A stretch of 64,000 nt of DNA from Methylocystis silviterrae (GTDB lineage: Bacteria > Pseudomonadota > Alphaproteobacteria > Rhizobiales > Beijerinckiaceae): contig NZ_JABVWW010000005.1 of the NCBI RefSeq assembly GCF_013350005.1, forward strand, positions 248,001 to 312,000, written 5' to 3'. Below the pieces are notes generated by a model, which had not been told where the DNA came from, did no database searches, and saw only the letters and a program-made list of their open reading frames with translations. The position numbers and the translations under genes were made by a program. This document shows, in pieces, positions 2 to 46,363 of this stretch (its first letter is position 1; every line of letters starts with the position of its first letter).

Positions 2-700
2 ATGGAGAAGTTCGGCGTCCGCATCCTTGAAGGCTATGGCGTGACGGAAGCCTCGCCGGTCCTCGCGCTCAACACGCCGATGTTCAACAGATTCGGCGCG
101 GTCGGACGTTTGATGCCAGGCGTCGAACACCGGCTTGAGCCCGTTCCGGGCGTGGAGGACGGCGGAAGGCTCTTGGTGCGCGGTCCCAATGTAATGATGG
201 GCTATCTCAAGATCGACAAGCCCGGCGTGGTGCAGCCGCCGGAGAACGGCTGGCATGATACGGGCGATATCGTCACGATCGACGCGCAGGGCTATGTGAC
301 GATCAAGGGGCGCGCCAAGCGCTTCGCCAAGGTCGGCGGCGAGATGGTGTCGCTCGCGGCGATCGAACAGTTGGCGGCGGAACTTTGGCCCGACGCGCTG
401 TCGGCGGCGGCGACCGAGATCGATCCGCGCAAGGGCGAGAGAATCATTCTCATCACACAGCGGAAGGACGCGACGCGCGCCGATTTCCAGGCCTATGCGA
501 AATCGAAGGGCGCCTCCGACCTGATGATTCCGGCGGAGATGATGATCGTCGAGAGTGTGCCGCTTCTTGGCTCCGGCAAGCTCGATTTCGCGGCGGTGAC
601 CAAAATGGTGCGCGAGCGCGGGCGCTACATTCTGCCCAACCCGCGCCTGCCCAACGGTCTGCAGGGGCGCATCGACGGAAGCGCCGCTGCGTCTGCGTGA
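2..700 (+). CDS. Acyl-[ACP]/acyl-CoA synthetase, C-terminal part (Aas-like), truncated by the window edge
   Basis: This is the C-terminal part of an AMP-forming acyl-activating enzyme. The reading frame is open at the left edge, so the true start lies outside the window. Visible adenylation-family motifs are GYGVTEASP (visible residues 11-19), GWHDTGDI (83-90) and IKGRAKRFAKVGGE (101-114), which normally bind ATP and the adenylate. A late GSGKLDF supplies the lysine that usually completes adenylation. The hinge and C-terminal subdomain resemble the synthetase half of Aas (2-acylglycerophosphoethanolamine acyltransferase/acyl-ACP synthetase) rather than acetyl-CoA synthetase. The role would be fatty acid activation for phospholipid repair or acyl-ACP recycling at the inner membrane. 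The class is well supported. The Aas assignment is inference because the acyltransferase half is not visible. Confidence 0.8.
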   Translation: MEKFGVRILEGYGVTEASPVLALNTPMFNRFGAVGRLMPGVEHRLEPVPGVEDGGRLLVRGPNVMMGYLKIDKPGVVQPPENGWHDTGDIVTIDAQGYVTIKGRAKRFAKVGGEMVSLAAIEQLAAELWPDALSAAATEIDPRKGERIILITQRKDATRADFQAYAKSKGASDLMIPAEMMIVESVPLLGSGKLDFAAVTKMVRERGRYILPNPRLPNGLQGRIDGSAAASA

Positions 701-734
701 AATTCCAAGAATTTAACTTCAGTCGCGCTGCGGT

Positions 735-840
735 CCTCGTCCTTCGAGACGCCGCCATTCGATCTCGGGCTTGCCCGAGATCGACATTCAAATTCGCAAG
801 TCGGGTAAACCCGACTTGCGGGCGGCTCCTCAGGATGAGG
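735..840. repeat. REP-like palindromic element with two internal hairpins (copy 1)
   Basis: The ends are cctcgtccttcgagacgccg and ggcggctcctcaggatgagg, an imperfect inverted repeat. Two perfect hairpins lie inside: gatctcgggc/gcccgagatc (761-782) and cgcaagtcggg/cccgacttgcg (795-820). The same cctcRtcctYcgag...gatgagg core recurs at 894-942, 10980-11024 and 11061-11108. Together with copy 2 it fills most of the 440-base gap between the synthetase gene and hss, where I see no gene. Confidence 0.75.
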
Positions 841-893
841 ACCGCTTACCCAACATGGTCGTTTGCATCATCCAAGACGCCAGAACCCCAAGG

Positions 894-942
894 CCCCTCA
901 TCCTGAGGAGGCCTCGAAGAGGCCGTCTCGAAGGACGAGGGG
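894..942. repeat. REP-like palindromic element (copy 2)
   Basis: An imperfect palindrome running from cccctcatcctgaggaggcc to ggccgtctcgaaggacgagg, in inverted orientation relative to copy 1. It could form a strong hairpin in RNA downstream of the synthetase gene. Confidence 0.75.
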
Positions 943-1142
943 CCGCTGGCGTTACAACGTTCGTGGAGCACTGACCAAGCCCGAAGCTCGGGCGGCCGGC
1001 GGGTGTGGTCCAGCAGGCCTTTGGGCAAAAAGCGCGCGCGCAGGGCCACGCCATGCGCCCGCCGCCAATCTCTCAAGCTCTTGATTAATACGTCCACGCT
1101 TGCTTTATCGCGGCGCAATAACTTTCTCGGGAGCTGCGCCTT

Positions 1143-2576
1143 ATGTCGACTTGGCCAAACTACGGCAAAATCACCGGTCCGATCGTGCTGATCGGCTTCG
1201 GCTCCATCGGCCGAGGCATTTTGCCGCTGATCGAGCGCCATTTCGATTTCGACAAATCGCGCGTCACCGTCATCGACCCGGTCGATACGCATCGCCGTCT
1301 GCTCGATGAGCGCGGCATCGCTTTTCTCAAAACCAGTCTGACGCCGGAGAACTACCGCGAGGTCTTGACCCCGCTGCTGACCAAGGGCGAAGGCCAGGGC
1401 TTTATCGTCAATCTCTCGGTCGACGTTTCTTCGCTCGCGATCATGAAACTCGCGCGCGAATTGAACGCGCTATGCGTCGACACGGTGGTGGAGCCATGGC
1501 CGGGCTTCTACTTCGACAAGAGCATGTCCAATGAAGCGCGCACCAATTATGCGCTGCGCGAGACGGTGCTCGAAGAGCGCCGCAAAAATCCCGGCGGATC
1601 GACGGCGGTCTCCTGCGTCGGCGCCAATCCCGGCATGGTGTCCTGGTTCGTCAAGCAGGCGCTCGTCGATATCGCGCGCGACACGGGAACGCTCGACAAG
1701 GAGCCGGAAACGCGCGCCGAATGGGGCGCGCTTGCCCAAAAGCTCGGGGTCAAGGGCGTTCACATCGCCGAACGCGACACGCAGCGCGCGCGCAATCCGA
1801 AACCGCGCGACGTCTTCGTCAACACCTGGTCGGTCGAAGGCTTTGTCTCCGAGGGCCTGCAGCCCGCCGAACTCGGCTGGGGCACGCATGAGAAGGCGTT
1901 GCCCGACATCGGCCGCACGCATCCGACCGGATGCGGCGCGGCGATCTATCTGCTGTCGCCCGGCGCCAATACGCGTGTGCGCTCATGGTGCCCGACGCCG
2001 GGGCCGCAATATGGCTTCCTCGTCACCCACAATGAGTCGATCTCGATCGCGGACTATCTCACCCTGCGCGACGAGAAGGGTCAGGCGATCTATCGTCCGA
2101 CCTGTCATTACGCCTATCATCCCGCCGACGACGCCGTGCTTTCCCTGCACGAGATGTTCGGCGCCGCCGGCAAGATGCAGGAGAGCTGGACGATCCTCGA
2201 CGAACACGAGATCGTCGATGGAATCGACGAACTTGGCGTGCTGCTCTATGGCCACGCCAAGAACGCCTATTGGTACGGGTCGCAGCTCTCGATCGAGGAG
2301 ACCCGTGATCTTGCGCCCTATCAGAACGCCACCGGACTGCAGGTGAGTTCGGCGGCGCTCGCCGGCATGGTCTGGGCGCTGGAGAATCCGCAGGCGGGAA
2401 TCGTCGAAGCCGACGAGGTCGACTACAAGCGCTGCCTCGAAGTGCAGCTGCCCTATCTCGGCCCGGTGAAGGGCTACTACACGGATTGGACGCCGCTCGA
2501 GGGACGTCCGGGCCTCTTTCCGGAAGACATCGACGAAAGCGATCCGTGGCAGTTCAGGAATATTCTGGTGCGCTAG
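1143..2576 (+). CDS. hss: Homospermidine synthase
   Basis: Homospermidine synthase makes sym-homospermidine from putrescine by an NAD-dependent aminobutyl transfer, giving the main polyamine of many alphaproteobacteria. The 477-residue protein matches the bacterial family length. An N-terminal Rossmann motif GFGSIGRG (about residues 18-25) follows a short lead. Family-typical stretches such as VVEPWPGFYFD and GANPGMVSWFVKQ follow, and they lie in the saccharopine-dehydrogenase-like fold. The ATG start at 1143 puts the nucleotide-binding motif at the usual distance from the N-terminus. The gene stands alone, preceded by REP-like elements and followed at 2607-2635 by a strong terminator, so it looks monocistronic. 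Identification is firm from overall sequence character. Confidence 0.95.
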   Translation: MSTWPNYGKITGPIVLIGFGSIGRGILPLIERHFDFDKSRVTVIDPVDTHRRLLDERGIAFLKTSLTPENYREVLTPLLTKGEGQGFIVNLSVDVSSLAIMKLARELNALCVDTVVEPWPGFYFDKSMSNEARTNYALRETVLEERRKNPGGSTAVSCVGANPGMVSWFVKQALVDIARDTGTLDKEPETRAEWGALAQKLGVKGVHIAERDTQRARNPKPRDVFVNTWSVEGFVSEGLQPAELGWGTHEKALPDIGRTHPTGCGAAIYLLSPGANTRVRSWCPTPGPQYGFLVTHNESISIADYLTLRDEKGQAIYRPTCHYAYHPADDAVLSLHEMFGAAGKMQESWTILDEHEIVDGIDELGVLLYGHAKNAYWYGSQLSIEETRDLAPYQNATGLQVSSAALAGMVWALENPQAGIVEADEVDYKRCLEVQLPYLGPVKGYYTDWTPLEGRPGLFPEDIDESDPWQFRNILVR

Positions 2577-2606
2577 GGGCGCACATCAGATCGGGAACCC
2601 AAAGAC

Positions 2607-2635
2607 GCGCGCCGAGGGACTCGGCGCGCTTTTTT
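2607..2635 (+). terminator. Rho-independent terminator of hss
   Basis: A perfect 10-bp stem (gcgcgccgag at 2607-2616 with ctcggcgcgc at 2620-2629), a 3-base loop and six T residues, 30 bases after the hss stop. Confidence 0.9.
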
Positions 2636-2747
2636 CGTTCGGAAAGCCGCTTGCCTCACTCTAATGTTCTCTATATGTTCTGACTAGCGTCAGTTCTGAG
2701 CGGTCGCCAGGCGATGCTCGGGGCAACGCTGGGCAGAGGTTGCGAAC

Positions 2748-3872
2748 ATGGGTGCGGCTCAGGCATCGGCAGAGATAAAGGGCGCCCCGCGGATCGACGG
2801 CGCCGCGATCATCGACGCTGATCGCCGGCGCGGACGCGGCGCGCTGTCTAAGCGCAGCGGCCGCTTCGAAAAGGAGACTCGCGAGGAGGCCGACGACGGT
2901 TGGGGCTCGCTGGAGAGCCTTGCGGCGCTCGAGACGAATTTTCACATAGAGAAGCCGCGCACAATCATCACCAGGAATGATTCGCCGGACATTTCCTTCG
3001 ATCGCTCGATCAATCCCTATCGCGGCTGCGAGCATGGCTGCGTCTATTGCTTCGCGCGGCCGACGCACGCCTATATGGGCTTTTCGCCCGGCCTCGATTT
3101 CGAGACCGAGATCTTCGTCAAGGACGGCGCGGCGCAGCTTCTCGAACGCGAATTATCGGCGCCGCGCTATGTCCCCAAGACGATCGCCATCGGCACCAAC
3201 ACCGATCCCTATCAGCCCGCCGAGAAGAGCCATCGAATCATGCGTTCGATCCTCGAAGTGCTGGCGCGCGCCAATCATCCCGTCGGCATCGTGACGAAGT
3301 CAGCGCTCGTCCTGCGCGACCTCGATCTGCTTGCGCCAATGGCGGCCAAGGGCCTCGCGAAGGTCGCGATCTCGGTGACGACGCTCGACCGCAAGCTCGC
3401 GCGCCTCATGGAGCCGCTCGCCGCGACGCCCGAGCTGCGGCTCGAAACCATCGAAAAGCTCAGCGCCGCCGGCGTGCCGACGGCGCTGATGACGGCGCCG
3501 ATCATTCCCGCCATCAATGACGACGAGATCGAGCGAATCTTGACGCGGGCCCACGCCGCCGGCGCTCGGGAAGCGGGCTATGTGATGCTGCGCCTGCCGC
3601 TCGAATTGCGCGATCTCTTCACCGAATGGCTGGCGACGCATTTTCCTGACAGGGCCCGCCGAGCCCTCGCGCTTATGCGCTCGACGCGGGACGGCAAGCT
3701 TTACGATGCGTCCTTCGGAACCCGCATGAAAGGCGAGGGGCCCTACGCCTGGATGATCGGCCGGCGTTTTGAGCTTGCGGTCGCCCGGCTCGGCTTTGCG
3801 CAGAAAACAAGATTGCGAACGGATCTGTTCGAGCCGCCGCGCCGCGCGCCGCAGCAGCTCACACTCTTCTGA
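2748..3872 (+). CDS. PA0069/Rv2578c-family radical SAM protein
   Basis: A 374-residue radical SAM protein of the PA0069 family, which is related to spore photoproduct lyase-like proteins. Its exact reaction is unknown. The [4Fe-4S]/SAM-binding motif CEHGCVYC (CxxxCxxC spacing) lies at about residues 94-101 within [21 protein letters not shown]. Downstream, [11 protein letters not shown] and [14 protein letters not shown] are conserved family stretches. The N-terminal 60 residues are charged and probably flexible. The start is the ATG at 2748. It is followed, same strand, by rnhB and ccrM. Family membership is firm; function is not. Confidence 0.9.
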
Positions 3873-4057
3873 GCCCATCTCGGGCTGGTCTCCGGCAAGC
3901 TTATCGCGCCTGCGCGGCCGAGAATTCTCTGGACGCCGCCGCAAGCGCCGTCTTTCCGGTTGCCAGCCGCCCACCCTCGGCGCTTTATTCGCTGCGCGGT
4001 CCTGCGCTGACGCCACCGTCGCGCAGAACCCTTAGCGATCCGCGCGAGGGAGCGTTT

Positions 4058-4669
4058 GTGACGGCCAAGGGACCCCATTTTCGGCTGGAAGCGCAGCTGC
4101 GCCGCAAAGGCGTCTGGCCGATCGCCGGCGTCGACGAGGTCGGACGCGGGCCGCTCGCGGGTCCGGTGGCTGCGGCGGCGGTGATTCTCGATCCCGAACG
4201 ACGGCCGCGGGGCCTCGATGATTCGAAGGCGCTGAACCAGGCGCAGCGCGAAGAAGCGTTTGAGCGCATCATGGCCAGCGCGCTCGCCGTGAGCGTCGCC
4301 TTCGTCGCCCCCGCCGAAATCGACCGCATCAATATCCGCCAGGCGTCGCTCGCGGCGATGGCGCGGGCCGTCGCCGGCCTTTCCCATACGCCTGCCTATC
4401 TTCTCATCGACGGCAACGACCGGCCGCCGGTCAACTGCCCCTGCCAGCTGATCATCAAGGGCGACGCGACCGCGCTGTCCATCGCCGCAGCCTCGATCGT
4501 CGCCAAGGTCGCGCGCGACGCCATGATGCGCCGCCTCGCCGTCCACTATCCCCACTATGGTTTTGAGACCAATGTCGGCTACGCCGTGCAGCGTCACCTT
4601 GACGCGCTGGCGCTGCACGGCGCGAGCCCGGCGCACCGCGTCAGCTTCGCGCCCGTGCGGGAGGCGTGA
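4058..4669 (+). CDS. rnhB: Ribonuclease HII
   Basis: RNase HII cleaves RNA in RNA-DNA hybrids and starts removal of single ribonucleotides from DNA. The 203-residue protein has the acidic active-site start [15 protein letters not shown] (Asp26, Glu27), the second acidic element LIDGND near residue 116 and the [17 protein letters not shown] stretch typical of the family. The start is GTG at 4058, supported by gaggga a few bases upstream; no ATG gives a better N-terminus. It sits between the radical SAM gene and ccrM on the same strand, with about 150 bases to ccrM. Confidence 0.96.
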
Positions 4670-4752
4670 GGCCTTCGTCAACTATTCGCTAACCTTTTTA
4701 TTTCTTTAAGACTTCCGTTCGAAAAAGAGACGCCGGCGTTTTGCCAATCTAA

Positions 4753-5988
<1,236 letters not shown>

Positions 5989-5995
5989 CTAATAT

Positions 5996-6079
5996 CCGTC
6001 ATTGCGAGGAGCGGAGCGACGAAGCAATCCAGAGCCGTGGGCGCGACTCTGGATTGCTTCGCTTCGCTCGCAATGACGG
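5996..6079. repeat. 84-bp palindromic repeat between convergent ccrM and uppP
   Basis: ccgtcattgcgaggagcgga at the left end pairs with its near-complement ending in gcaatgacgg, and agcaatccagag pairs with ctctggattgct around a short loop. This gtcattgcgagg...gaagcaatcc type is a frequent intergenic palindrome in Hyphomicrobiales. It lies 7 bases after ccrM and just before the uppP stop, so its hairpin may also end transcription from both sides. Confidence 0.8.
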
Positions 6080-6081
6080 CC

Positions 6082-6954
6082 TTATGCCAAAAAGCCTGCG
6101 TAGAAGCCGACGAGCAGCACGATTCCGATGAAGGCGCGATAGAAGACAAAGGGCCAAGCGGAGAAGCGTTCGAGAATCCGCAACAAGCCCCAGATTGCGA
6201 CAAAGGCGGAGATCGAGGCGACGAAAAGCCCGAGCGTCAGCACCGCCCAGCCGTGAAAATCGAGCTGCGCCTTATGCAGCTCCCACAGCTCCTTCAGGCC
6301 CGCAAGGGCGATCGCCGGCAGGCCGAGCAGGAAGGAAAAGCGCGCCGCTTCCTCGCGCTTGAGGTCGAGGAATAGCGCCGCCGTCAGAGTCGAGCCCGAG
6401 CGCGAGACGCCCGGAATGAGCGCGCCGACCTGCGCGAAGCCGACGATCATCGCGTCCTTCAGGCTGACATGTTCGAGCGTGCGCTTGTGATTGCAATAGA
6501 GCTCGGCGATGGCGAGCAGCGCCGCCATCACGATCGAGGAAATCCCGATCACCGGCAGCGAGCGCAGCGGCGAGCCGCAGGTGTTGAGCGTATGCGACAG
6601 CGCGAGGCCGGCGATGCCGATAGGCACGGTCGCGAGCGCGATCCAGACGACGAAGCGAAAGGTCCAGGCGTTGAAATCGCGCCGCACCAGCGCCCGCACG
6701 GACCCCTCGGCAAGCGCGCGGATGTCGCTCCAGAAATAGCTGACGACGGCGGCGAGCGCCGCGAGCTGCATCGCCGCGGAGAAGGCGGAGCCAGGGTCCT
6801 TCCAGCCGAGCAGCGCCGGCACGATGCGCATATGCGCGGTCGAGGAGATCGGCAGAAGCTCGGTGATGCCCTGCACCACGCCAAGAACGGCGACTTTCAT
6901 ATAACCGAGATCGACAAAACCGGTGTCGAGCCCATTCGTGCAAGCGGTCGCCAT
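6082..6954 (-). CDS. uppP: Undecaprenyl-diphosphatase UppP
   Basis: An integral membrane phosphatase that recycles undecaprenyl diphosphate to the monophosphate carrier for peptidoglycan and other glycans. The 290-residue protein shows the two family signatures: GITELLPISSTAHM near residue 30 and PGVSRSGSTL near residue 178, which hold the catalytic Glu, Ser and Arg. Several hydrophobic segments fit the multi-span fold. The first ATG (6954) adds about 18 residues before a second Met (6900), which lies closer to where this family usually starts; either may be used. It is convergent with ccrM across a palindromic repeat. Confidence 0.93.
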   Translation of the reverse strand: MATACTNGLDTGFVDLGYMKVAVLGVVQGITELLPISSTAHMRIVPALLGWKDPGSAFSAAMQLAALAAVVSYFWSDIRALAEGSVRALVRRDFNAWTFRFVVWIALATVPIGIAGLALSHTLNTCGSPLRSLPVIGISSIVMAALLAIAELYCNHKRTLEHVSLKDAMIVGFAQVGALIPGVSRSGSTLTAALFLDLKREEAARFSFLLGLPAIALAGLKELWELHKAQLDFHGWAVLTLGLFVASISAFVAIWGLLRILERFSAWPFVFYRAFIGIVLLVGFYAGFLA

Positions 6955-7328
6955 AGAGGCCCTCGTCTCGTTTGTCGGCCCCGCGACGAATCACGAAGGC
7001 GCCAAGCGACTCCGACTTCTGGCAAACAAGCCGGCCGCGATCAAGGCGATGCGGGGAAGTTCGGCTGGCCGGCAATGCTCTTCTCCATTTCATCAAGCGC
7101 TCTGGGCGTTCGCCCCCGGGCGATCACGCGTCGTCCATGCGCCCAAATCCGCGAGGGCTGGCTCGGCGTCCGTTTAGCCTTGTGCGAGAGCGGACGCTGA
7201 CTGTGGCTGAGGCGCCACACTCGGCTCCGAAAGAACTTCCGACTGGCAAAAGCCATAGTCACGGTAAGTGGCCATATGTGAATGTTTATTCATCCTACCG
7301 ATAGGCAATATCGGACCAGGGCGGCCGC
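6955..7328. other. Intergenic region, no gene recognised
   Basis: 374 bases between the divergent uppP and autotransporter genes. It must hold both promoters. I see no tRNA, repeat or conserved small ORF. The last about 80 bases turn AT-richer (tgtttattcatcc), which fits the promoter of the downstream gene. Confidence 0.5.
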
Positions 7329-40175: not shown

Positions 40176-41996
40176 GTGAATAGTCAAGCTATAGCGCCAA
40201 ATGTGGCTGCAGAGGTGACTCGGCCTGCTCGAGCGCGTTGGCGGGAGTTCTGCGCGCTTGCTCTGGGATTCTGGGCGGGCGAGACCAGCCGACGGGCATG
40301 GAGTCTGACGGGGTTAGTCGCCCTGTGCATCGCGCTGCAGCTTGGGGCGCAGCTCAGCATCAACGAATGGAACCGGACGTTTTTCGACGCGCTGGCAAGC
40401 AAGAATGTCGAAGCGCTGAGTTGGGCGACGATCCTGTTGCCCGCCCTCGTCGCATTCAGCGGCCTCGCCATTAGCGGAACGCTCGTGGCGCGCATGACGT
40501 TGCAGATGCGTTGGCGAGAATGGCTCACTGAAAAACTCGCCGGCTGGTGGCTCGAGGATCAACGCTACTACCGTCTTGAGATCGCCGCAGCCGAGCAGAC
40601 CTCGCCGGAATATCGAATCTCCAAGGACGTGCAACTCGCCGTAGATCCGCTGGTCGAATTCGCCGTCGGCTTTTTGACCGCGCTGGCGACGGCGTTGGCC
40701 TTCGTCGGGGTTCTGTGGACCGTTGGCGGCGCCCTGGAGCTTAATCTGTTTGGCGCGCGCCTCGTGTTGCCGGGATATCTCGGCTTCGCCGCGGTGGTTT
40801 ATGCGACGATCGCCGGCGGCCTCGCCTACTTCGCCGGACGTCCCCTCGTTCCGGCCGTTGCGCAGAAGAACGAGGCTGAAGCGCGGTTCCTCGCCGAACT
40901 CACACGGCTGAAGGAGAACGCGGAAAGCATTGCGCTCATACGTGGCGACGCCGACGAATTGAGTTCTGTCCTGCAGAACTATCGACGCGTCGTCGCCGCC
41001 TGGATACGCCAGATCCATCGCAACGCGGTGATCGCCACCGTGCAGAGCGCCAATGGCGCGCTGGTGCCGCTGATTCCGCTCGTGCTCGTCGCGCCCAAAT
41101 ATCTCTCGGGCGCTCTGACGCTCGGAATGGTCATGCAGCTTACCGCCGCCTTCATCTCGGTGCAGATCGCCTTCAACTGGTTCATCGACAATTCGGTGCG
41201 CGTCGCGGAGTGGATGGCCTCAGCCAACCGGGTCGACGAACTCGCAGAAGCGCTCGAGAGTCTGGATATAGGCGTTATCATGGAGGAGAAGGAGTTTATC
41301 GATTTCGGCGTTAGCGACGACAACACGATTCACATAGAGGATCTCGCGGTCGCGCATCGCAACGGTCGAATTGTGATTGCTGGCGCGAACGTTGTCATTC
41401 CCACTGGCGAAAAGCTGCTCGTGGCGGGGCCGAGCGGCACGGGAAAGAGCACGCTTATTCGCGCCCTCGCCGGATTATGGCCGTGGGGTTCGGGGCGCAT
41501 CCTCTTGCCGAAAGACGCTCACATCGCCTTTGTGCCGCAGAAGCCGTACATCCCTCTGGGCACGCTTCGTCAGGCCATGCTCTATTCAATTTCCGACAAG
41601 GAAATCACCGACGATATGATCGAAGGCGCGATGCGGCGATGCGGCTTGGGTTATCTCGTCAAGCATCTCGACGAAGAGCAGCGCTGGGACCAAACGCTTT
41701 CCGGCGGTGAGCGGCAGCGAACGGCTTTTGTTCGGCTCTTGCTGCAAAGGCCGCAGATCATCATCATGGATGAAGCGACGTCGGCGCTCGACGAAGAGAG
41801 TCAGGTTTCGATGCTGCGCCTGTTCAATGAAGATCTCGCCGGCGCGACGGTGATCAGCGTCGGTCATCGCGTTGGCATGGAAGATTTTCACGACAAGAAA
41901 CTCGTTCTTGAGCGCCGCGCCGCCGGCGCGCATATCACGAGCCGTAAGCTGCAAAAATCCCTGTGGCACTTGTTCGACGACGCCGCGCTTCATTGA
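40176..41996 (+). CDS. ABC transporter, SbmA/YddA-like membrane domain fused to ATPase
   Basis: A 606-residue half-transporter. The N-terminal membrane domain (about residues 30-340, six hydrophobic helices) has the family phrases SINEWNRTFFDALASKN, WREWLTEKLAGWWL and YYRLEIAAAEQTSPEYRIS, as in the SbmA/BacA and YddA group. The ATPase domain (about 385-590) has Walker A GPSGTGKST near residue 418, signature LSGGERQRTAF and Walker B IIIMDEATSALDEES. Relatives import peptides, cobalamin or other hydrophilic compounds. The start is GTG at 40176 with agagagg upstream. It lies 165 bases before the repeat-protein gene on the same strand. The link to that cluster is only positional. Confidence 0.87.
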   Translation: MNSQAIAPNVAAEVTRPARARWREFCALALGFWAGETSRRAWSLTGLVALCIALQLGAQLSINEWNRTFFDALASKNVEALSWATILLPALVAFSGLAISGTLVARMTLQMRWREWLTEKLAGWWLEDQRYYRLEIAAAEQTSPEYRISKDVQLAVDPLVEFAVGFLTALATALAFVGVLWTVGGALELNLFGARLVLPGYLGFAAVVYATIAGGLAYFAGRPLVPAVAQKNEAEARFLAELTRLKENAESIALIRGDADELSSVLQNYRRVVAAWIRQIHRNAVIATVQSANGALVPLIPLVLVAPKYLSGALTLGMVMQLTAAFISVQIAFNWFIDNSVRVAEWMASANRVDELAEALESLDIGVIMEEKEFIDFGVSDDNTIHIEDLAVAHRNGRIVIAGANVVIPTGEKLLVAGPSGTGKSTLIRALAGLWPWGSGRILLPKDAHIAFVPQKPYIPLGTLRQAMLYSISDKEITDDMIEGAMRRCGLGYLVKHLDEEQRWDQTLSGGERQRTAFVRLLLQRPQIIIMDEATSALDEESQVSMLRLFNEDLAGATVISVGHRVGMEDFHDKKLVLERRAAGAHITSRKLQKSLWHLFDDAALH

Positions 41997-42160: not shown

Positions 42161-43375
42161 ATGCAAGTCGCTTACAATGGAACAGCGCCTTCGGTCGCGC
42201 CGATGGGCATGGTTGCCGATCAGATGTTTGCGCCGCAAGGCTTCATCGGCGGCGCGCTCGGCAGCGCGCTGGGCGGATTGGGCGGCGGCGCGCTCGGCCG
42301 CGCCCTGGGCAACCAGAATCTCGGTCGGCAGATCGGCAGCGTCGCGGGCGGGGTGCTCGGCGGCTTGCTGCCGTTCGACGCCGGCCCGCAGGCTTACGCC
42401 GGAACCTATTACGTCCCGCAGACGGCCGCGCCCGGATTTGCGCCGCAAGGAATCGTCGGCGATGCGCTTGGCGCGATCGGGGCGCCGCTCGGCGGCTTCA
42501 TCGGCGGCCGCTTCGGCAATGCCGGACTGGGGCAGACGATCGGCGGCACGGTGGGCGGTCTCGCGCAGCGTTTCCTGCCGTTCGACGCCGGCCCGCCGGC
42601 CTACGCCGGGGCCTATTACGTCCCGCAGACGGCTGCGCCGGGATTTGCGCCGCAAGGGATCGTCGGCGATGCGCTCGGCGCGATCGGGGCGCCGCTCGGC
42701 GGCTTCATCGGCGGCCGTTTCGGCAACGCCGGTCTCGGTCAGACGATCGGCGGCACGGTGGGCGGGCTTGCCCAGCGTTTCCTGCCGTTCGAAGCGACGC
42801 CTGTGTTCGCGCCGCAGGGGATCGTCGGCGACGCGCTTGGCGCGATCGGCGCGCCGCTCGGCGGCTTCATCGGCGGCCGCTTCGGCAACGCTGGACTGGG
42901 GCAGACGATCGGCGGCACGGTGGGCGGTCTCGCGCAGCGCTTCCTGCCGTTCGAGGCGGAGCCGGTTTTCGTTCCGCAGGGCTTCATCGGCGATGCGCTC
43001 GGCGCGGTCGGGGGCCGGGTTGGCAACTGGATCGGCGGGCGCTTCGGCAACGCCGGCGCTGGCCAGACGGTTGGCAATGTGGTGGGCGGACTAGCCCAGC
43101 GCTTCCTGCCGTTCGAAGCTGGCCCACAGGCTGGAACTTATTATGTCCCCCAGACGGCTGCGCCAGTGTTCGCGCCGCAGGGCATCGTCGGCGATGCGCT
43201 TGGCGCGATCGGCGCGCCGCTCGGCGGTTTCATCGGCGGCCGCTTCGGCAACGCTGGACTGGGGCAGACGATCGGCGGCACGGTGGGCGGTCTCGCTCAG
43301 CGCTTCCTGCCCTTCGAAGCAGGCCCGCAGCCCGTCTACTACGTGCCGCAGATGCAGGCGCCGATGTACGGCTGA
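42161..43375 (+). CDS. Six-repeat glycine-zipper protein, unknown function
   Basis: A 404-residue protein built from six tandem units that start at about residues 23, 93, 162, 216, 270 and 337. Each unit opens with FAPQGIVGDALGAIG, continues GGFIGGRFGNAGLGQTIGG and closes GLAQRFLPF. GxxxG and GG spacing gives a strong glycine-zipper, the pattern of helix-packing or membrane-inserting segments. Units 1, 2 and 5 end in a YYVPQTAAP linker and unit 6 in YYVPQMQAP; units 3 and 4 have short linkers. There is no signal peptide. gggagga lies 6 bases before the ATG at 42161. The earlier open frame has no repeats. It is followed by a prosegment-like gene and a subtilase. I do not know a named family. 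Confidence 0.85.
   Translation: MQVAYNGTAPSVAPMGMVADQMFAPQGFIGGALGSALGGLGGGALGRALGNQNLGRQIGSVAGGVLGGLLPFDAGPQAYAGTYYVPQTAAPGFAPQGIVGDALGAIGAPLGGFIGGRFGNAGLGQTIGGTVGGLAQRFLPFDAGPPAYAGAYYVPQTAAPGFAPQGIVGDALGAIGAPLGGFIGGRFGNAGLGQTIGGTVGGLAQRFLPFEATPVFAPQGIVGDALGAIGAPLGGFIGGRFGNAGLGQTIGGTVGGLAQRFLPFEAEPVFVPQGFIGDALGAVGGRVGNWIGGRFGNAGAGQTVGNVVGGLAQRFLPFEAGPQAGTYYVPQTAAPVFAPQGIVGDALGAIGAPLGGFIGGRFGNAGLGQTIGGTVGGLAQRFLPFEAGPQPVYYVPQMQAPMYG
42227..43372 (+). repeat. Six in-frame tandem DNA repeats (54-70 codons each)
   Basis: Units begin at 42227, 42437, 42644, 42806, 42968 and 43169. Units 2, 3, 4 and 6 are almost identical even at synonymous positions; units 1 and 5 are diverged. This suggests recent duplication or gene conversion and makes copy-number variation or assembly collapse likely. 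Confidence 0.9.
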
Positions 43376-43428
43376 TGTCCTGAGCGACGCAATCGACGCG
43401 ACGCATGAAGGATGATCTGCTGCCGCTT

Positions 43429-43450
43429 CCGGGCCGATTCATCGGCCCGG
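43429..43450 (+). promoter_or_regulatory. Strong hairpin between the repeat-protein and prosegment genes
   Basis: A perfect 10-bp stem, ccgggccgat (43429-43438) with atcggcccgg (43441-43450). No T run follows, so it is more likely an mRNA stabiliser or partial barrier than a true terminator. It could raise expression of the repeat protein over the protease. Confidence 0.7.
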
Positions 43451-43480
43451 GAGCCCTCGAGAGATCAGGATCGCGAAATC

Positions 43481-43726
43481 ATGAGCGCAACGAACGGCAT
43501 CGATCAATTTTTGGTGGCGCCGCGGAATGCGGCGGGCGCAGGAGATTTAGCTGCTTTCGAACAGGCGATGCAGTCTGTTCCCGGCGCCGCAATTCTTCAG
43601 CGCGCCGGCAAGGCCGGTCAACCGAGGTTGGTCGTCGCTCTCCCCGCCGCGGTCGCCAGTCAATTGCGCGAACAATTTGGCGCGACCCTGATCATCGAAC
43701 CAAACGCTCCGCTGAAAGCATTTTAA
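43481..43726 (+). CDS. Small protein resembling a stand-alone subtilase prosegment
   Basis: An 81-residue protein without signal or membrane segment. By eye it aligns over nearly its whole length with residues about 40-130 of the subtilase encoded downstream: DQFLVAPRNAAG against ERFMIASRRVPG, VPGAAILQRAG against LPDVKIVRRIQ, and PRLVVALPAAVASQLRE against PEILVAEMDPDRGAKLQ, then LIIEPNAPL against VIVERDAFL. Prosegments of S8 peptidases (inhibitor I9-like) fold the protease and inhibit it, so this may be a separate inhibitor or chaperone. atcagga precedes the ATG at 43481. The inhibitor idea is inference. Confidence 0.75.
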   Translation: MSATNGIDQFLVAPRNAAGAGDLAAFEQAMQSVPGAAILQRAGKAGQPRLVVALPAAVASQLREQFGATLIIEPNAPLKAF

Positions 43727-43788
43727 CGCCGCCGCCGCATTCTTCAGAGCGATGCGCAGGCTGGCCTGATTTTATTAGGAGAGTCGAA

Positions 43789-45606
43789 ATGGCTGGTCCC
43801 GATACTGCTAATCCTGCGCCGAATGGGCCGAATGGTCAGAGTTCCGGGCGTGCGGCGCCGGCGCCCAATGGCGCCGATACGCGCGTGGAGCCGATGGCGA
43901 TTGCGCCAACGGAGCGCTTTATGATCGCCTCGCGGCGCGTGCCCGGATTCGCGCCCGCTTCGGCGATGGATCTCGCCAATGCGCTGCCCGACGTAAAGAT
44001 CGTGCGGCGGATTCAGCCGCGCGGGCTCACCGCCTTTTCAGCCGGCGGGCCATCGTCTCAGACGCCGGAAATTCTCGTCGCCGAGATGGACCCTGATCGC
44101 GGCGCCAAACTGCAGGCGTCGGCGCCGCCCAACGTCATTGTGGAGCGCGACGCCTTTCTTCGCGCCTCGGACGATTTTCGGCCCTTCGACTTCAACGGAG
44201 TCATGCCGATCGCCGCCGGCGTTGGAGTTGACGTGCAGCTGCGCGTCGTGGGCGTTGGCGGCAAGCCGCTGCCCAAGGCGACGGTCTATGTCTATGGGCA
44301 GGGCTTTCCGGGCCAAGGCGTCACCAATGAGCGCGGCGAAGTCGTCGTGACGGTTTTCGGCGGTCCGATCGAGACCATCCAGGCGATTTACGTCAAACCT
44401 TCCGCCGATCATTGGGATCGGATGCTGCGCGCGCCAGCACTTCAGGCCGGCGCGATGAACACTGTGCAGTTGCGCCCGCTGACTGAAAGCTTCAACGGCT
44501 TCCCTCAAAGCGGGATGGTCGGCTGGGGTCAGCGCCTGATGAAGCTCGATCGGCTTGATCCCTCATTTACTGGCGCCGGCGTCAAGATCGGCATCATCGA
44601 TTCGGGTTGTGACAGCGCGCACCCGCAACTGCGCCATGTGACGCGCGGCGCCGATCTCACCAATGGCGGCGACAAGACGAGCTGGTCGAACGATCAAATC
44701 GGCCACGGCACGCATTGCGCCGGAATCATTACGGCCGCCTCCGAGGGCGTCGCCGGCATTCGCGGCTTTGCGCCCAAGGCGGAAGTTCACGCGTTGAAAG
44801 TGTTTCCCGGCGGTCGTTTCAGCGATCTCATCGACGCGCTCGACGAATGCATCGAACGGCAGCTCGACGTCGTCAATATGAGCCTTGGCAGCGGCGATCC
44901 TTCCGAACTCGTTGCGCAGAAAATCTCCGAAGCGCGCCAGAGCGGCGTTGCCTGCATCGTCGCCGCCGGAAACTCCAGCGGACCTGTGCAGTTTCCCGGC
45001 ATGCTGCCGACGGTGCTGACGGTCGCCGCGATGGGCAAGCTCGATGAGTTTCCCTCCGACAGCTATCACGCTCAGACGGTTGTCCCGCAACTTGTCGCGG
45101 GGACGATGTTCTCGCCGAAATTCACGTGCTTTGGGCCACAGATCACTGTCGCGGCGCCTGGCGTGGCGATCGTCTCCACTGTGCCCGGCGGCGGATATGC
45201 GGCCTGGGACGGCACCTCGATGGCGACGCCTCACGTCACCGGCATGGCGGCGCTGCTTCTCGCGCACCATCCGCTTCTCGCAGGGGCGCGTACGGCGCGC
45301 AATGAGCAACGCGTTGCTCAGCTCTTCTCGCTGTTGGCCTCATCCGGCGTCCGCTATCTCGGCGACTCCACGCGCGAAGGCGTCGGCGCGCCGGATTTTG
45401 AGCGCGTGCCGAGTCAGGCCGCAACTCAGCCGATGGGCGCAGCGGCGCCCGCTGGCGCGGGACTGGCGCCCGCGGGAGCGATGATCGACGGATTTGCTCC
45501 GCTGAGCGCGCCAGCGCCATGGGCCGTCGATCCTGCGATGATGCAAAGGATCAATCCGGCGATCATTCAGCGCATGATGCAGCTGCGAGCCGCGGGCCTT
45601 ATTTAG
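43789..45606 (+). CDS. Subtilisin-like serine peptidase (S8) with prosegment and Ig-like domain
   Basis: A 605-residue S8 peptidase. Order: a Pro/Asn/Gly-rich lead (1-38), a prosegment-like domain (about 40-130), a beta-sandwich-like domain (about 140-230, LRVVGVGGKPLPKATVYVYG and TNERGEVVVTVFGG), the catalytic domain (about 255-540) and a low-complexity Ala/Pro/Met tail. The triad is visible: Asp271 in IGIIDSGCD, His306 in GHGTHCAG and Ser477 in GTSMATPH, with the oxyanion Asn in AAGNSS. No signal peptide is seen, so it acts inside the cell or leaves by an unusual route. aggagag precedes the ATG at 43789. Its 3' end overlaps the convergent regulator gene by 8 bases. Confidence 0.92.
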   Translation: MAGPDTANPAPNGPNGQSSGRAAPAPNGADTRVEPMAIAPTERFMIASRRVPGFAPASAMDLANALPDVKIVRRIQPRGLTAFSAGGPSSQTPEILVAEMDPDRGAKLQASAPPNVIVERDAFLRASDDFRPFDFNGVMPIAAGVGVDVQLRVVGVGGKPLPKATVYVYGQGFPGQGVTNERGEVVVTVFGGPIETIQAIYVKPSADHWDRMLRAPALQAGAMNTVQLRPLTESFNGFPQSGMVGWGQRLMKLDRLDPSFTGAGVKIGIIDSGCDSAHPQLRHVTRGADLTNGGDKTSWSNDQIGHGTHCAGIITAASEGVAGIRGFAPKAEVHALKVFPGGRFSDLIDALDECIERQLDVVNMSLGSGDPSELVAQKISEARQSGVACIVAAGNSSGPVQFPGMLPTVLTVAAMGKLDEFPSDSYHAQTVVPQLVAGTMFSPKFTCFGPQITVAAPGVAIVSTVPGGGYAAWDGTSMATPHVTGMAALLLAHHPLLAGARTARNEQRVAQLFSLLASSGVRYLGDSTREGVGAPDFERVPSQAATQPMGAAAPAGAGLAPAGAMIDGFAPLSAPAPWAVDPAMMQRINPAIIQRMMQLRAAGLI

Positions 45607-46363
45607 TCGCAAGCACGAGCGGTCCTCGATCGATCGGCGAATGAAGCGCTCCTCCGTGATTTGCGGAGGAGCGCTTTCGCATCGAGTGCGCCGCTTCGCC
45701 GCGACCGCGCACTTGCAGCTTCTGTAGAACATTGTGCACGTGATTCTTCACCGTGCCGAGTTCGATGCGTAGCCGACGAGCGATCTCCTTGTTCGACAGA
45801 CCGCGCTCGATCAGTTCGAGTATCTCCCGCTCGCGCGCCGTAAGCGCGTCCTTTGCATTCGCGAGCGGTTCCTTGCCGATAGCCCGACGCTGCTCGACCG
45901 ATCGAATCGCCGGCGCCGCTGTCAATCGCTCCAGCAGTTCGACAACGTCTTCAATCGAGCCCTCGCGAGGAATGACGCCGACGATCGATGGACAAGCGGC
46001 CGCCAATGCTGCGCCAGCCGATGCCGGCGCGCCGATGGCGACGATCTGCAGATCTGGATGTTGCGCGCCGAGAGCTTGCGCAATCGCGAGCGCTTCCAGT
46101 TCGCCAACGTCAAGCAGCACAATGTCAAGTTCAGATTGAGCCGCCGCCGCCAGAGCGGCGCCGCACGCGACGACGGAGACGACCGACATTCCCGCATGCT
46201 GGCTCAGACGCAAGCCAAGTGCTTCGCTAAACAGGCGCGTGTCGCTGACAATTAAGATGCGCGCATCTGGGGACAAATTTGCTGACGCAGAAACAAACGC
46301 GCTCTGCGCCGACGAACTGATTCCCTGAGCGGAATCGTTTCGGAAAGCCGCAAACCGGGGCAT
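45599..46363 (-). CDS. LuxR/NarL-type transcription regulator
   Basis: A 254-residue regulator. A receiver-like domain (about residues 34-150, ILIVSDTRLFSEALGLRL, then IVLLDVGELEAL with the putative phospho-Asp) is followed by a LuxR HTH (about 170-230): LTAREREILELIERGLSNK and IARRLRIELGTVKNHVHNVL. The acidic pocket after the first strand reads SDT rather than the usual DD pair, so phosphorylation may be lost. It is convergent with, and overlaps, the subtilase gene. A role in controlling the repeat-protein/protease genes is likely from position only. Confidence 0.87.
   Translation of the reverse strand: MPRFAAFRNDSAQGISSSAQSAFVSASANLSPDARILIVSDTRLFSEALGLRLSQHAGMSVVSVVACGAALAAAAQSELDIVLLDVGELEALAIAQALGAQHPDLQIVAIGAPASAGAALAAACPSIVGVIPREGSIEDVVELLERLTAAPAIRSVEQRRAIGKEPLANAKDALTAREREILELIERGLSNKEIARRLRIELGTVKNHVHNVLQKLQVRGRGEAAHSMRKRSSANHGGALHSPIDRGPLVLATK

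Follow-up and report, generated by a model that had tools for sequence, protein, structure and literature searches.

Stand-alone inhibitors that resemble subtilisin propeptides include Pbi2 of yeast, POIA1 of Pleurotus and SUB1-ProM of Plasmodium (MEROPS I9). In one report, SUB1-ProM adjoins subtilase genes and a helix-capping role is given to a Glu-x-Asp/Asn pair (PMC6993865). The subject here is a bacterial locus with a comparable small protein, found in the methane-consuming bacterium Methylocystis silviterrae on contig NZ_JABVWW010000005.1, within an analysed stretch of 64,000 nt that is called the window. The cassette at 42161-46363 encodes a glycine-zipper repeat protein, an 81-residue prosegment-like protein, an S8 subtilase and a LuxR-type regulator. 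As with the I9-type inhibitors, a small free protein is related to the prosegment of the neighbouring subtilase and has a Glu-x-Asp/Asn pair near its end together with a C-terminal tail. It differs from Pbi2, POIA1 and SUB1-ProM in being bacterial, in lying in a repeat-protein cassette and in having no significant match to three I9 members, and inhibition is putative here. The sequences suggest, with a probability of about 0.5, that the cassette comprises a dedicated protease that would cut the repeat protein as its substrate and would be braked by the 81-residue protein.

The S8 catalytic domain is shared with type VII mycosins and intracellular subtilisins, from which the window enzyme is set apart by prosegment-like and Ig-like domains of its own, a free prosegment and a repeat partner. 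Protease-linked bacterial gasdermins follow a related operon logic, a protease with a membrane-acting substrate; here the substrate would be a tandem repeat, and the window repeat protein has no Pfam match over cut-off. Glycine-zipper proteins of an alphaproteobacterium are known from the Cdz system of Caulobacter (CdzC/CdzD), for which aggregates of CdzC are described and linked genes for type I secretion and a small membrane immunity protein (PMC5380434). The window cassette differs from Cdz in its six-unit protein, its protease and its prosegment. For DfsB/Slf of Paenibacillus, the published work describes a bacterial precursor that is cut by subtilisin to an active peptide (PMC4773401). 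DfsB is a secreted helical bundle of the DinB fold with a cationic helix in the fragment, whereas the window cassette has near-neutral tandem zippers and a linked protease in which no signal peptide was seen; a DinB-fold domain (DUF1706) was not matched in the repeat protein by Pfam at E up to 1. Self-growth suppression in Bradyrhizobium has been ascribed to an agent for which the authors consider a protein improbable (PMC11896636), and it was not linked to the cassette here. An earlier note on this DNA, made from the sequence alone, knew of no described system with this gene set, and none turned up in literature searches. This conserved cassette of a protease, a brake-like small protein and a target-like repeat protein, with related cassettes in other bacteria, is apparently undescribed.

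Conservation of the cassette

The open reading frames (ORFs) and coordinates of the four genes were confirmed as the earlier note had given them, and its proposal of one functional unit is supported by their distribution. Among 37 Methylocystis genomes (the window's own and 36 more), which are related and not independent, one set of 12 has the repeat protein, the 81-residue protein (E <1e-40), the full-length S8 and the LuxR regulator. The cassette genes adjoin in these 12 genomes, with the repeat gene of G013 split over two contigs. The other 25 have no cassette gene beyond weak chance matches, and some hold weaker S8 matches of other kinds (G001, G003, G009). Weak prosegment matches in five genomes of the genus (G011, G017, G025, G030 and G031; E 9.5e-5 to 0.056) were taken as chance. 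The four that were inspected, those of G017, G025, G030 and G031, fall within a protein of 371-400 residues that showed no likeness at tblastn E up to 1. This protein is presumably the cytochrome c biogenesis protein CcmI. Named relatives with a 91-97% identical S8 are Methylocystis or close kin, and in each of the eight named loci checked the cassette is followed by a cupin gene and an asparaginase-like gene. These loci therefore have one site in common and do not count as independent. A search for repeat proteins that lack S8 covered 61 relatives and plasmids. In the relatives the repeat protein was found in the 12 genomes with the cassette and as one weak match elsewhere (G055, E 6.7e-4), hence not mostly apart from the protease or prosegment gene; plasmids gave no match.

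Beyond the genus, a single-sequence search with the S8 N-terminus returned only its own genome among 385 genomes of the class, and tblastn in plasmids returned two Streptomyces plasmids (82-88% coverage, 34-36% identity). A profile of S8 N-termini matched at least 12 of 398 phylum-sample genomes and at least 9 of 397 order-sample genomes, own included in both; several of these matches are weak or cousin enzymes, and 11 loci were compared, the remainder being weak. With a second profile, two kinds of enzyme were found in g29, another genus of the Rhizobiales. Type A (E <1e-84) is present in at least 20 of 195 genomes and type B (E 3e-44 to 4e-35) in at least 15; two further genomes have weak matches only, and no listed genome has both types. 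In the order of G707 the same profile matched at least 3 of 230 genomes, namely G707, G1401 and one weak match. G707 and G1401 belong to another class, and the order of repeat, prosegment and S8 genes is kept in them as in g29.

The prosegment gene lies directly upstream of S8 in G707, in G1401 and in 19 of 20 type-A loci of g29; the 20th (L128) ends at a contig edge, so that the gene adjoins every type-A enzyme with upstream flank available. A repeat ORF precedes it, which in some loci is short, cut or masked (L114, L120, L122, L123, L124). In three of the g29 genomes the S8 is Methylocystis-like, at 62-66% identity, and is followed by a LuxR homologue; two of these loci show zipper units (e.g. 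PQGFFGNLLGQVGAPLGG...LPF followed by EA) and a prosegment gene, and the third is cut. In a tree of 32 S8 proteins, these three enzymes join Methylocystis and not the other g29 enzymes (support 99/99), which points to an apparent movement of the cassette between families as a unit. The other 17 type-A loci of g29, where the frame is open far enough, have one zipper unit followed by copies of DMELQSFWSVLKKIGQGVQTGVNIGHQLGVF and then SAGQPG. Type B was compared in 11 loci from the 15 type-B genomes; the weak matches G1189 and G1229 were left aside. No prosegment gene was found in any of the 11, and in all of them S8 has upstream a G/Q-rich repeat protein, RQLSPQDVNEVVRQLVPALPQI being one example of its repeats. 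Between that protein and S8, all five loci inspected among the type-B loci L130-L140 have an additional ORF of 152-185 residues (e.g. L130:4767-5225).

These comparisons bear on the alternative that a surface or storage repeat protein merely lies beside an unrelated intracellular protease. The 12 genomes may be one subclade and so not independent, which counts in favour of such chance neighbours. Against this stand the same gene order in another genus and another class and the presence of the Methylocystis-like cassette in two families. The other neighbours argue likewise: comparison of ORFs of at least 90 aa across 16 loci of different lineages gave 17 pairs not touching S8, of which 14 belong to the genes for repeat protein, prosegment and LuxR regulator (in one case as an antisense shadow of the repeats) and only three are unrelated single matches (ATPase-like, oxidoreductase-like and dehydrogenase-like, named by eye or annotation). 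Ordinary neighbourhood is thus very improbable.

Prosegment, protease and repeat units

The earlier note had called the 81-residue protein prosegment-like, and homology to the S8 N-terminal prosegment was found by two methods. Alignment by hhalign gave a probability of 96% (E 1.5e-9), and in an hmmsearch of S8 N-termini the best E was 1.3e-8 (L131), while the S8 of the window itself scored 5.6e-5. All of the 22 prosegments have a Glu-x-Asp/Asn pair close to the C-terminus and a C-terminal LxxF, as residues and not as contacts, and LxxF followed by 0-3 residues ends all 22. A profile search of the PDB with the prosegment had a best E of 0.44, to an unrelated entry. A prosegment and an S8 with triad motifs are also encoded on an IMG/VR contig (L141:1-308, L149); this prosegment ends in LNQY, and the upstream frame ends by eye in repeats of QPQDIWSDTAKTVLPVLFSIL.

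The S8 enzyme matches Pfam Peptidase_S8 (PF00082) with E 1.8e-42 and 146.1 bits against a cut-off of 21.8. Aligned to subtilisin BPN', its triad and oxyanion Asn are in place (D271, H306, N395, S477). The earlier note had overlooked the enzyme's own prosegment-like domain, a weak Ig-like domain and a hairpin between the first two genes; Pfam matches the Ig-like domain weakly in two relatives, and at E up to 1 it does not match it in the window protein. No signal peptide was seen by inspection. The best NCBIfam match is a mycosin of the type VII secretion system (T7SS), at 120.8 bits below the cut-off of 278.75. A phage origin was disfavoured because none of the 49 matching phage records reached 80% coverage; among the 15 matches listed, the alignment starts at residue 243 or later and runs mostly to about 486. 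By eye, the S8 proteins of the window (45537-45603) and of L125, L071 and L073 have similar helix-like C-terminal tails (...QRMMQLRAAGLI, ...QGFLQMRNAGLI, ...QIMHKVGLL), and such a tail is a possible docking tag. Two other, weaker S8 domains lie elsewhere in the same genome.

The repeat protein has the six units that the earlier note described, each of 49-50 residues (aa 23-72, 93-141, 162-210, 216-264, 270-318 and 337-385). Every unit opens with FAPQG or FVPQG and closes with LPF. The label of glycine zipper is upheld by 22 copies of GxxxGxxxG, more than in any of 1000 shuffles (mean 6.4, max 15). Units 2, 3, 4 and 6 are identical over 49 residues, with 0 nonsynonymous and 5-16 synonymous differences per pair and DNA differences at third codon positions only, which shows selection on the sequence of each unit. 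The protein is 25% Gly, has no Cys and a net charge of 0, and no signal peptide was seen by inspection. The glycine-zipper families of the Rickettsia 17 kDa type (PF05433, PF13488) do not match it at E up to 1, and match its relatives below cut-off only (best 18.3 bits against 24.2). In G004 the repeat gene (L006:5608-7620) has a frame change inside the repeats, through mutation or assembly error.

A phenylalanine motif connects the repeat units with the prosegment. In two different repeat types the units end in LPF, GVF or GIF, followed by S/D/E/N and A, and the LxxF at the C-terminus of the prosegment resembles these ends (LPF before EA, DA or SA; GVF before SA, DA or EA). The pattern [LFMI]xxF[SDEN][ATV] occurs six times in the window repeat protein (shuffle mean 0.08, max 2) and seven to nine times in each of 14 uncut type-A repeat ORFs of g29 (shuffle means 0.08-0.26); the L129 ORF in this analysis is a cut frame. 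Each of the 11 type-B ORFs has one copy at most, and three ORFs beside S8 homologues that have lost catalytic residues have none.

Proposed mechanism and alternatives

In the mechanism proposed here, the repeat protein would be a chain of low-charge glycine-zipper units of about 50 residues. The S8 subtilase would sit in the cytoplasm, where it is placed because no signal peptide was seen, and would be kept inactive both by the prosegment that it carries and by the free one, whose C-terminal tail may lie in the active site like a product. Once the brake is lifted, S8 would cut after the Phe at each unit end, between [LFMI]xxF and [S/D/E/N]A, and one multivalent chain would become single units. 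The outcome would be control over the size or membrane attachment of a self-assembling scaffold, a role that we propose tentatively. The main alternative outcome is the release of growth-inhibiting peptides. We lean to the scaffold because charges are low, strongly hydrophobic windows are found in 2 of 10 repeat proteins, no shared exporter was found and dead S8 homologues are kept with low-complexity partners.

Several observations weigh against a braked protease that cuts at the Phe motif. Pfam I9 does not match the window 81-residue protein (E up to 1) or two relatives (E up to 10), and hhalign of the prosegment against three canonical I9 sequences was not significant; the protein is therefore named prosegment-like and not I9. 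The Phe motif was chosen after the sequences had been seen. Copies inside one protein do not count as independent, and its true support is therefore its presence in two repeat types and in the prosegment tail. The repeat protein of G707 has one copy of the motif and the frame of G1401 has none (it has MLPFQM). The S8's own prosegment does not end in LxxF. At the position of subtilisin Gly166, the base of the S1 pocket, all 23 type-A enzymes have Gln, and bulk at this position works against a large P1 residue. In favour of the brake, a free prosegment was found inside this group only beside enzymes with a canonical SLG substrate-binding loop, which is present in all 23 type-A enzymes aligned and altered in all 11 of type B (GFG in 5, GVG in 6). 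Outside the group, however, SLG occurs in five of six cousin enzymes, and the prosegment profile found no prosegment gene beside any of the six, so the association of loop and brake holds for this group only. Finally, catalytically dead homologues kept beside a low-complexity ORF in Streptomyces and G1046 indicate that cutting is not the sole conserved role.

These dead enzymes invite a different view of the core function, in which S8 would mainly read or clamp a multivalent low-complexity scaffold by binding. Proteolysis would then be an addition in certain lineages, which Streptomyces and G1046 have lost and which may be weaker in type B. The S8 of Streptomyces 3211 has Ser changed to Thr and Asn to Asp, that of Streptomyces NBC_00841 has Ser to Ala and Asn to Asp, and that of G1046 has His to Gln, Asn to Asp and Ser to Ala. 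In the two Streptomyces plasmids and in G1046 the ORF immediately upstream of S8 is G/Q-rich and of low complexity, and a prosegment gene was not found. Such dead or altered homologues, retained next to G/Q-rich ORFs, speak for a binding function. It is nevertheless rather unlikely, since type A keeps the full triad and oxyanion Asn (the Ser of L116 is cut off), the canonical loop and a dedicated prosegment, and type B also keeps triad and oxyanion Asn.

The release of peptides has a fuller form in a protoxin cassette. Here S8 would free zipper or amphipathic peptides of about 50 residues that disturb the membranes of siblings or of the producer, and the 81-residue protein would be the lock that keeps this safe. 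The cassette would then resemble in its action DfsB/Slf with subtilisin, or the bacterial gasdermins that proteases activate. Glycine zippers occur in the Cdz bacteriocins (PMC5380434), and DfsB/Slf provides the precedent of a sibling-lethal precursor cut by subtilisin (PMC4773401). The distribution of the cassette is patchy, with apparent transfer, and the g29 units contain an amphipathic FWSVLKKIGQGVQTG stretch (maximum 18-residue moment 0.56). The physical properties of the repeat proteins speak against it: net charges across ten of them range from -5 to +3, and a 19-residue window of hydropathy >=1.6 is present in two of the ten (L067, L041) and not in the window protein. Different lineages were not found to share an exporter or immunity gene, and none of the 17 cross-lineage pairs is a Cdz-type secretion or immunity gene, at a minimum ORF length of 90 aa that a shorter immunity gene could escape. 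One g29 repeat protein tested has no Pfam match to bacteriocins or cecropins. A cationic antimicrobial peptide, suggested by the cecropin-like look of a g29 repeat, was disfavoured on this result and on the charges. We consider the protoxin unlikely. The pore or bacteriocin of the earlier note was accordingly not shown, and its second suggestion, a scaffold inside the cell that the protease turns over, is at least as good a fit; overall, its interpretation is partly supported.

Matches to defence models raise the further idea that infection lifts the brake and that the freed protease or units stop the cell. The PADLOC model named subtilase (PDLC03014) matches S8 aa 208-505 (E 3.8e-27), and a partial match to IetS covers part of the catalytic domain (E 4.6e-10). 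The first model also matches the g29 enzymes of types A2 and B; both matches span the common S8 domain, and PDLC03014 is tied to no named system. The repeat protein and the prosegment have no PADLOC match, and no defence gene was found as a neighbour common to lineages. An IetA-like AAA partner common to lineages was likewise not found, in comparisons that did not scan the window's own neighbours for one. The setting of a cousin S8 in L045, close to CHAT and TIR genes, is in favour. A defence role appears improbable.

The cousins in L043-L045 (rhizobial plasmids; e.g. L043:5578-7327) have an S8 with a similar N-terminal and Ig-like layout, followed directly by an ORF of about 81 residues. The small ORF shows no likeness to the window prosegment by eye. 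These pairs were rejected as the same cassette because the S8 falls outside the group in the tree (L043 only), and they are counted as cousins only. In L045, a Ti plasmid record, the cousin pair (16-7324) adjoins a second S8 and proteins annotated with CHAT and TIR domains, a defence-like neighbourhood.

Flanking features and wider meaning

The positions of the genes and their parts are collected in Table 1.

Table 1. Features of the cassette in the window (positions in nt; aa, amino acids)
Feature	Position	Strand	Remarks
Repeat protein gene	42161..43375	+	404 aa
Repeat unit 1	42227..42376	+	50 aa, divergent first unit, ends LPF before DA
Repeat unit 2	42437..42583	+	49 aa, ends LPF before DA
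Repeat unit 3	42644..42790	+	protein identical to unit 2
Repeat unit 4	42806..42952	+	protein identical to unit 2
Repeat unit 5	42968..43114	+	13 residues differ from unit 2, ends LPF before EA
Repeat unit 6	43169..43315	+	protein identical to unit 2
G+C-rich hairpin between repeat gene and prosegment gene	43425..43454	+	13 pairs, no T-run
Stand-alone prosegment-like protein gene	43481..43726	+	81 residues, C-terminal tail ...IIEPNAPLKAF
S8 subtilase gene	43789..45606	+	605 aa
S8 own N-terminal prosegment-like domain	43906..44166	+	about aa 40-126
Small Ig-like / carboxypeptidase-regulatory-like domain of S8	44230..44433	+	about aa 148-215, placed by alignment
S8 catalytic domain	44572..45282	+	aa 262-498
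Receiver-like plus GerE/LuxR-type DNA-binding regulator gene	45599..46363	-	254 aa

The hairpin is paired in 117 of 117 cells of nine aligned Methylocystis loci, and two of its pairs show compensatory change. Its covariation score was reached by 5 of 500 shuffles and its count of two-sided changes by 11 of 500; versions slid along the alignment pair at <=58%, and the whole spacer between repeat and prosegment genes has a z-score of -2.68. Strong hairpins are present at the equivalent place in L125, L071, L069, L126, L119, L123 and L115; L129 has a shorter stem there and L067 no single long stem. Because a T-run is lacking, the hairpin may be a setter of stoichiometry, by which more repeat protein than protease would be made. 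Scans found one promoter against a shuffle mean of 0.7 and seven terminators against 4.6, none of them at the hairpin, and Rfam at its gathering threshold gave no match.

The LuxR regulator gene is convergent to the S8 gene and overlaps its end by 8 bp. Its membership in the unit, as proposed in the earlier note, holds within the 12 Methylocystis genomes and is not universal. The three g29 loci with a Methylocystis-like S8 have a convergent homologue behind it at 46-50% identity, as does G1046 at 37%. Of the 17 remaining type-A loci of g29, 15 have a SARP-type regulator upstream instead; the last two, L120 and L124, have little upstream sequence. In L069 (4033-4857, reverse-complement coordinates), for example, a regulator named by eye as SARP/BTAD-type stands ahead of the repeat gene. 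Directly upstream of the repeat gene in the window is an ABC transporter with a fused ATPase (40176-41996), which is probably not part of the unit because it is about 3 kb away in L008 and L009.

Taken jointly, these features may describe a bacterial polyprotein system. One gene would encode a chain of self-associating, nearly identical units that a dedicated subtilase would cut at a fixed Phe motif, a free prosegment would bear the same motif as an inhibitor tail, the cassette would move between families while swapping repeat types and regulators, and the pair would be kept after catalysis is lost in some lineages. As a whole, this combined claim is held with more doubt than confidence. To our knowledge, tandem precursors that are processed by a linked protease of their own, with a prosegment acting in trans as the brake, are known mainly from animals, plants and viruses. 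If the reading is true, bacteria would gain this form of tandem-precursor processing. The reading predicts where exactly the cuts fall, that the tail inhibits and that loss of the brake has a phenotype. In the relatives with dead enzymes, nature would then have provided a series in which to study the function of a protease homologue after cutting is lost.

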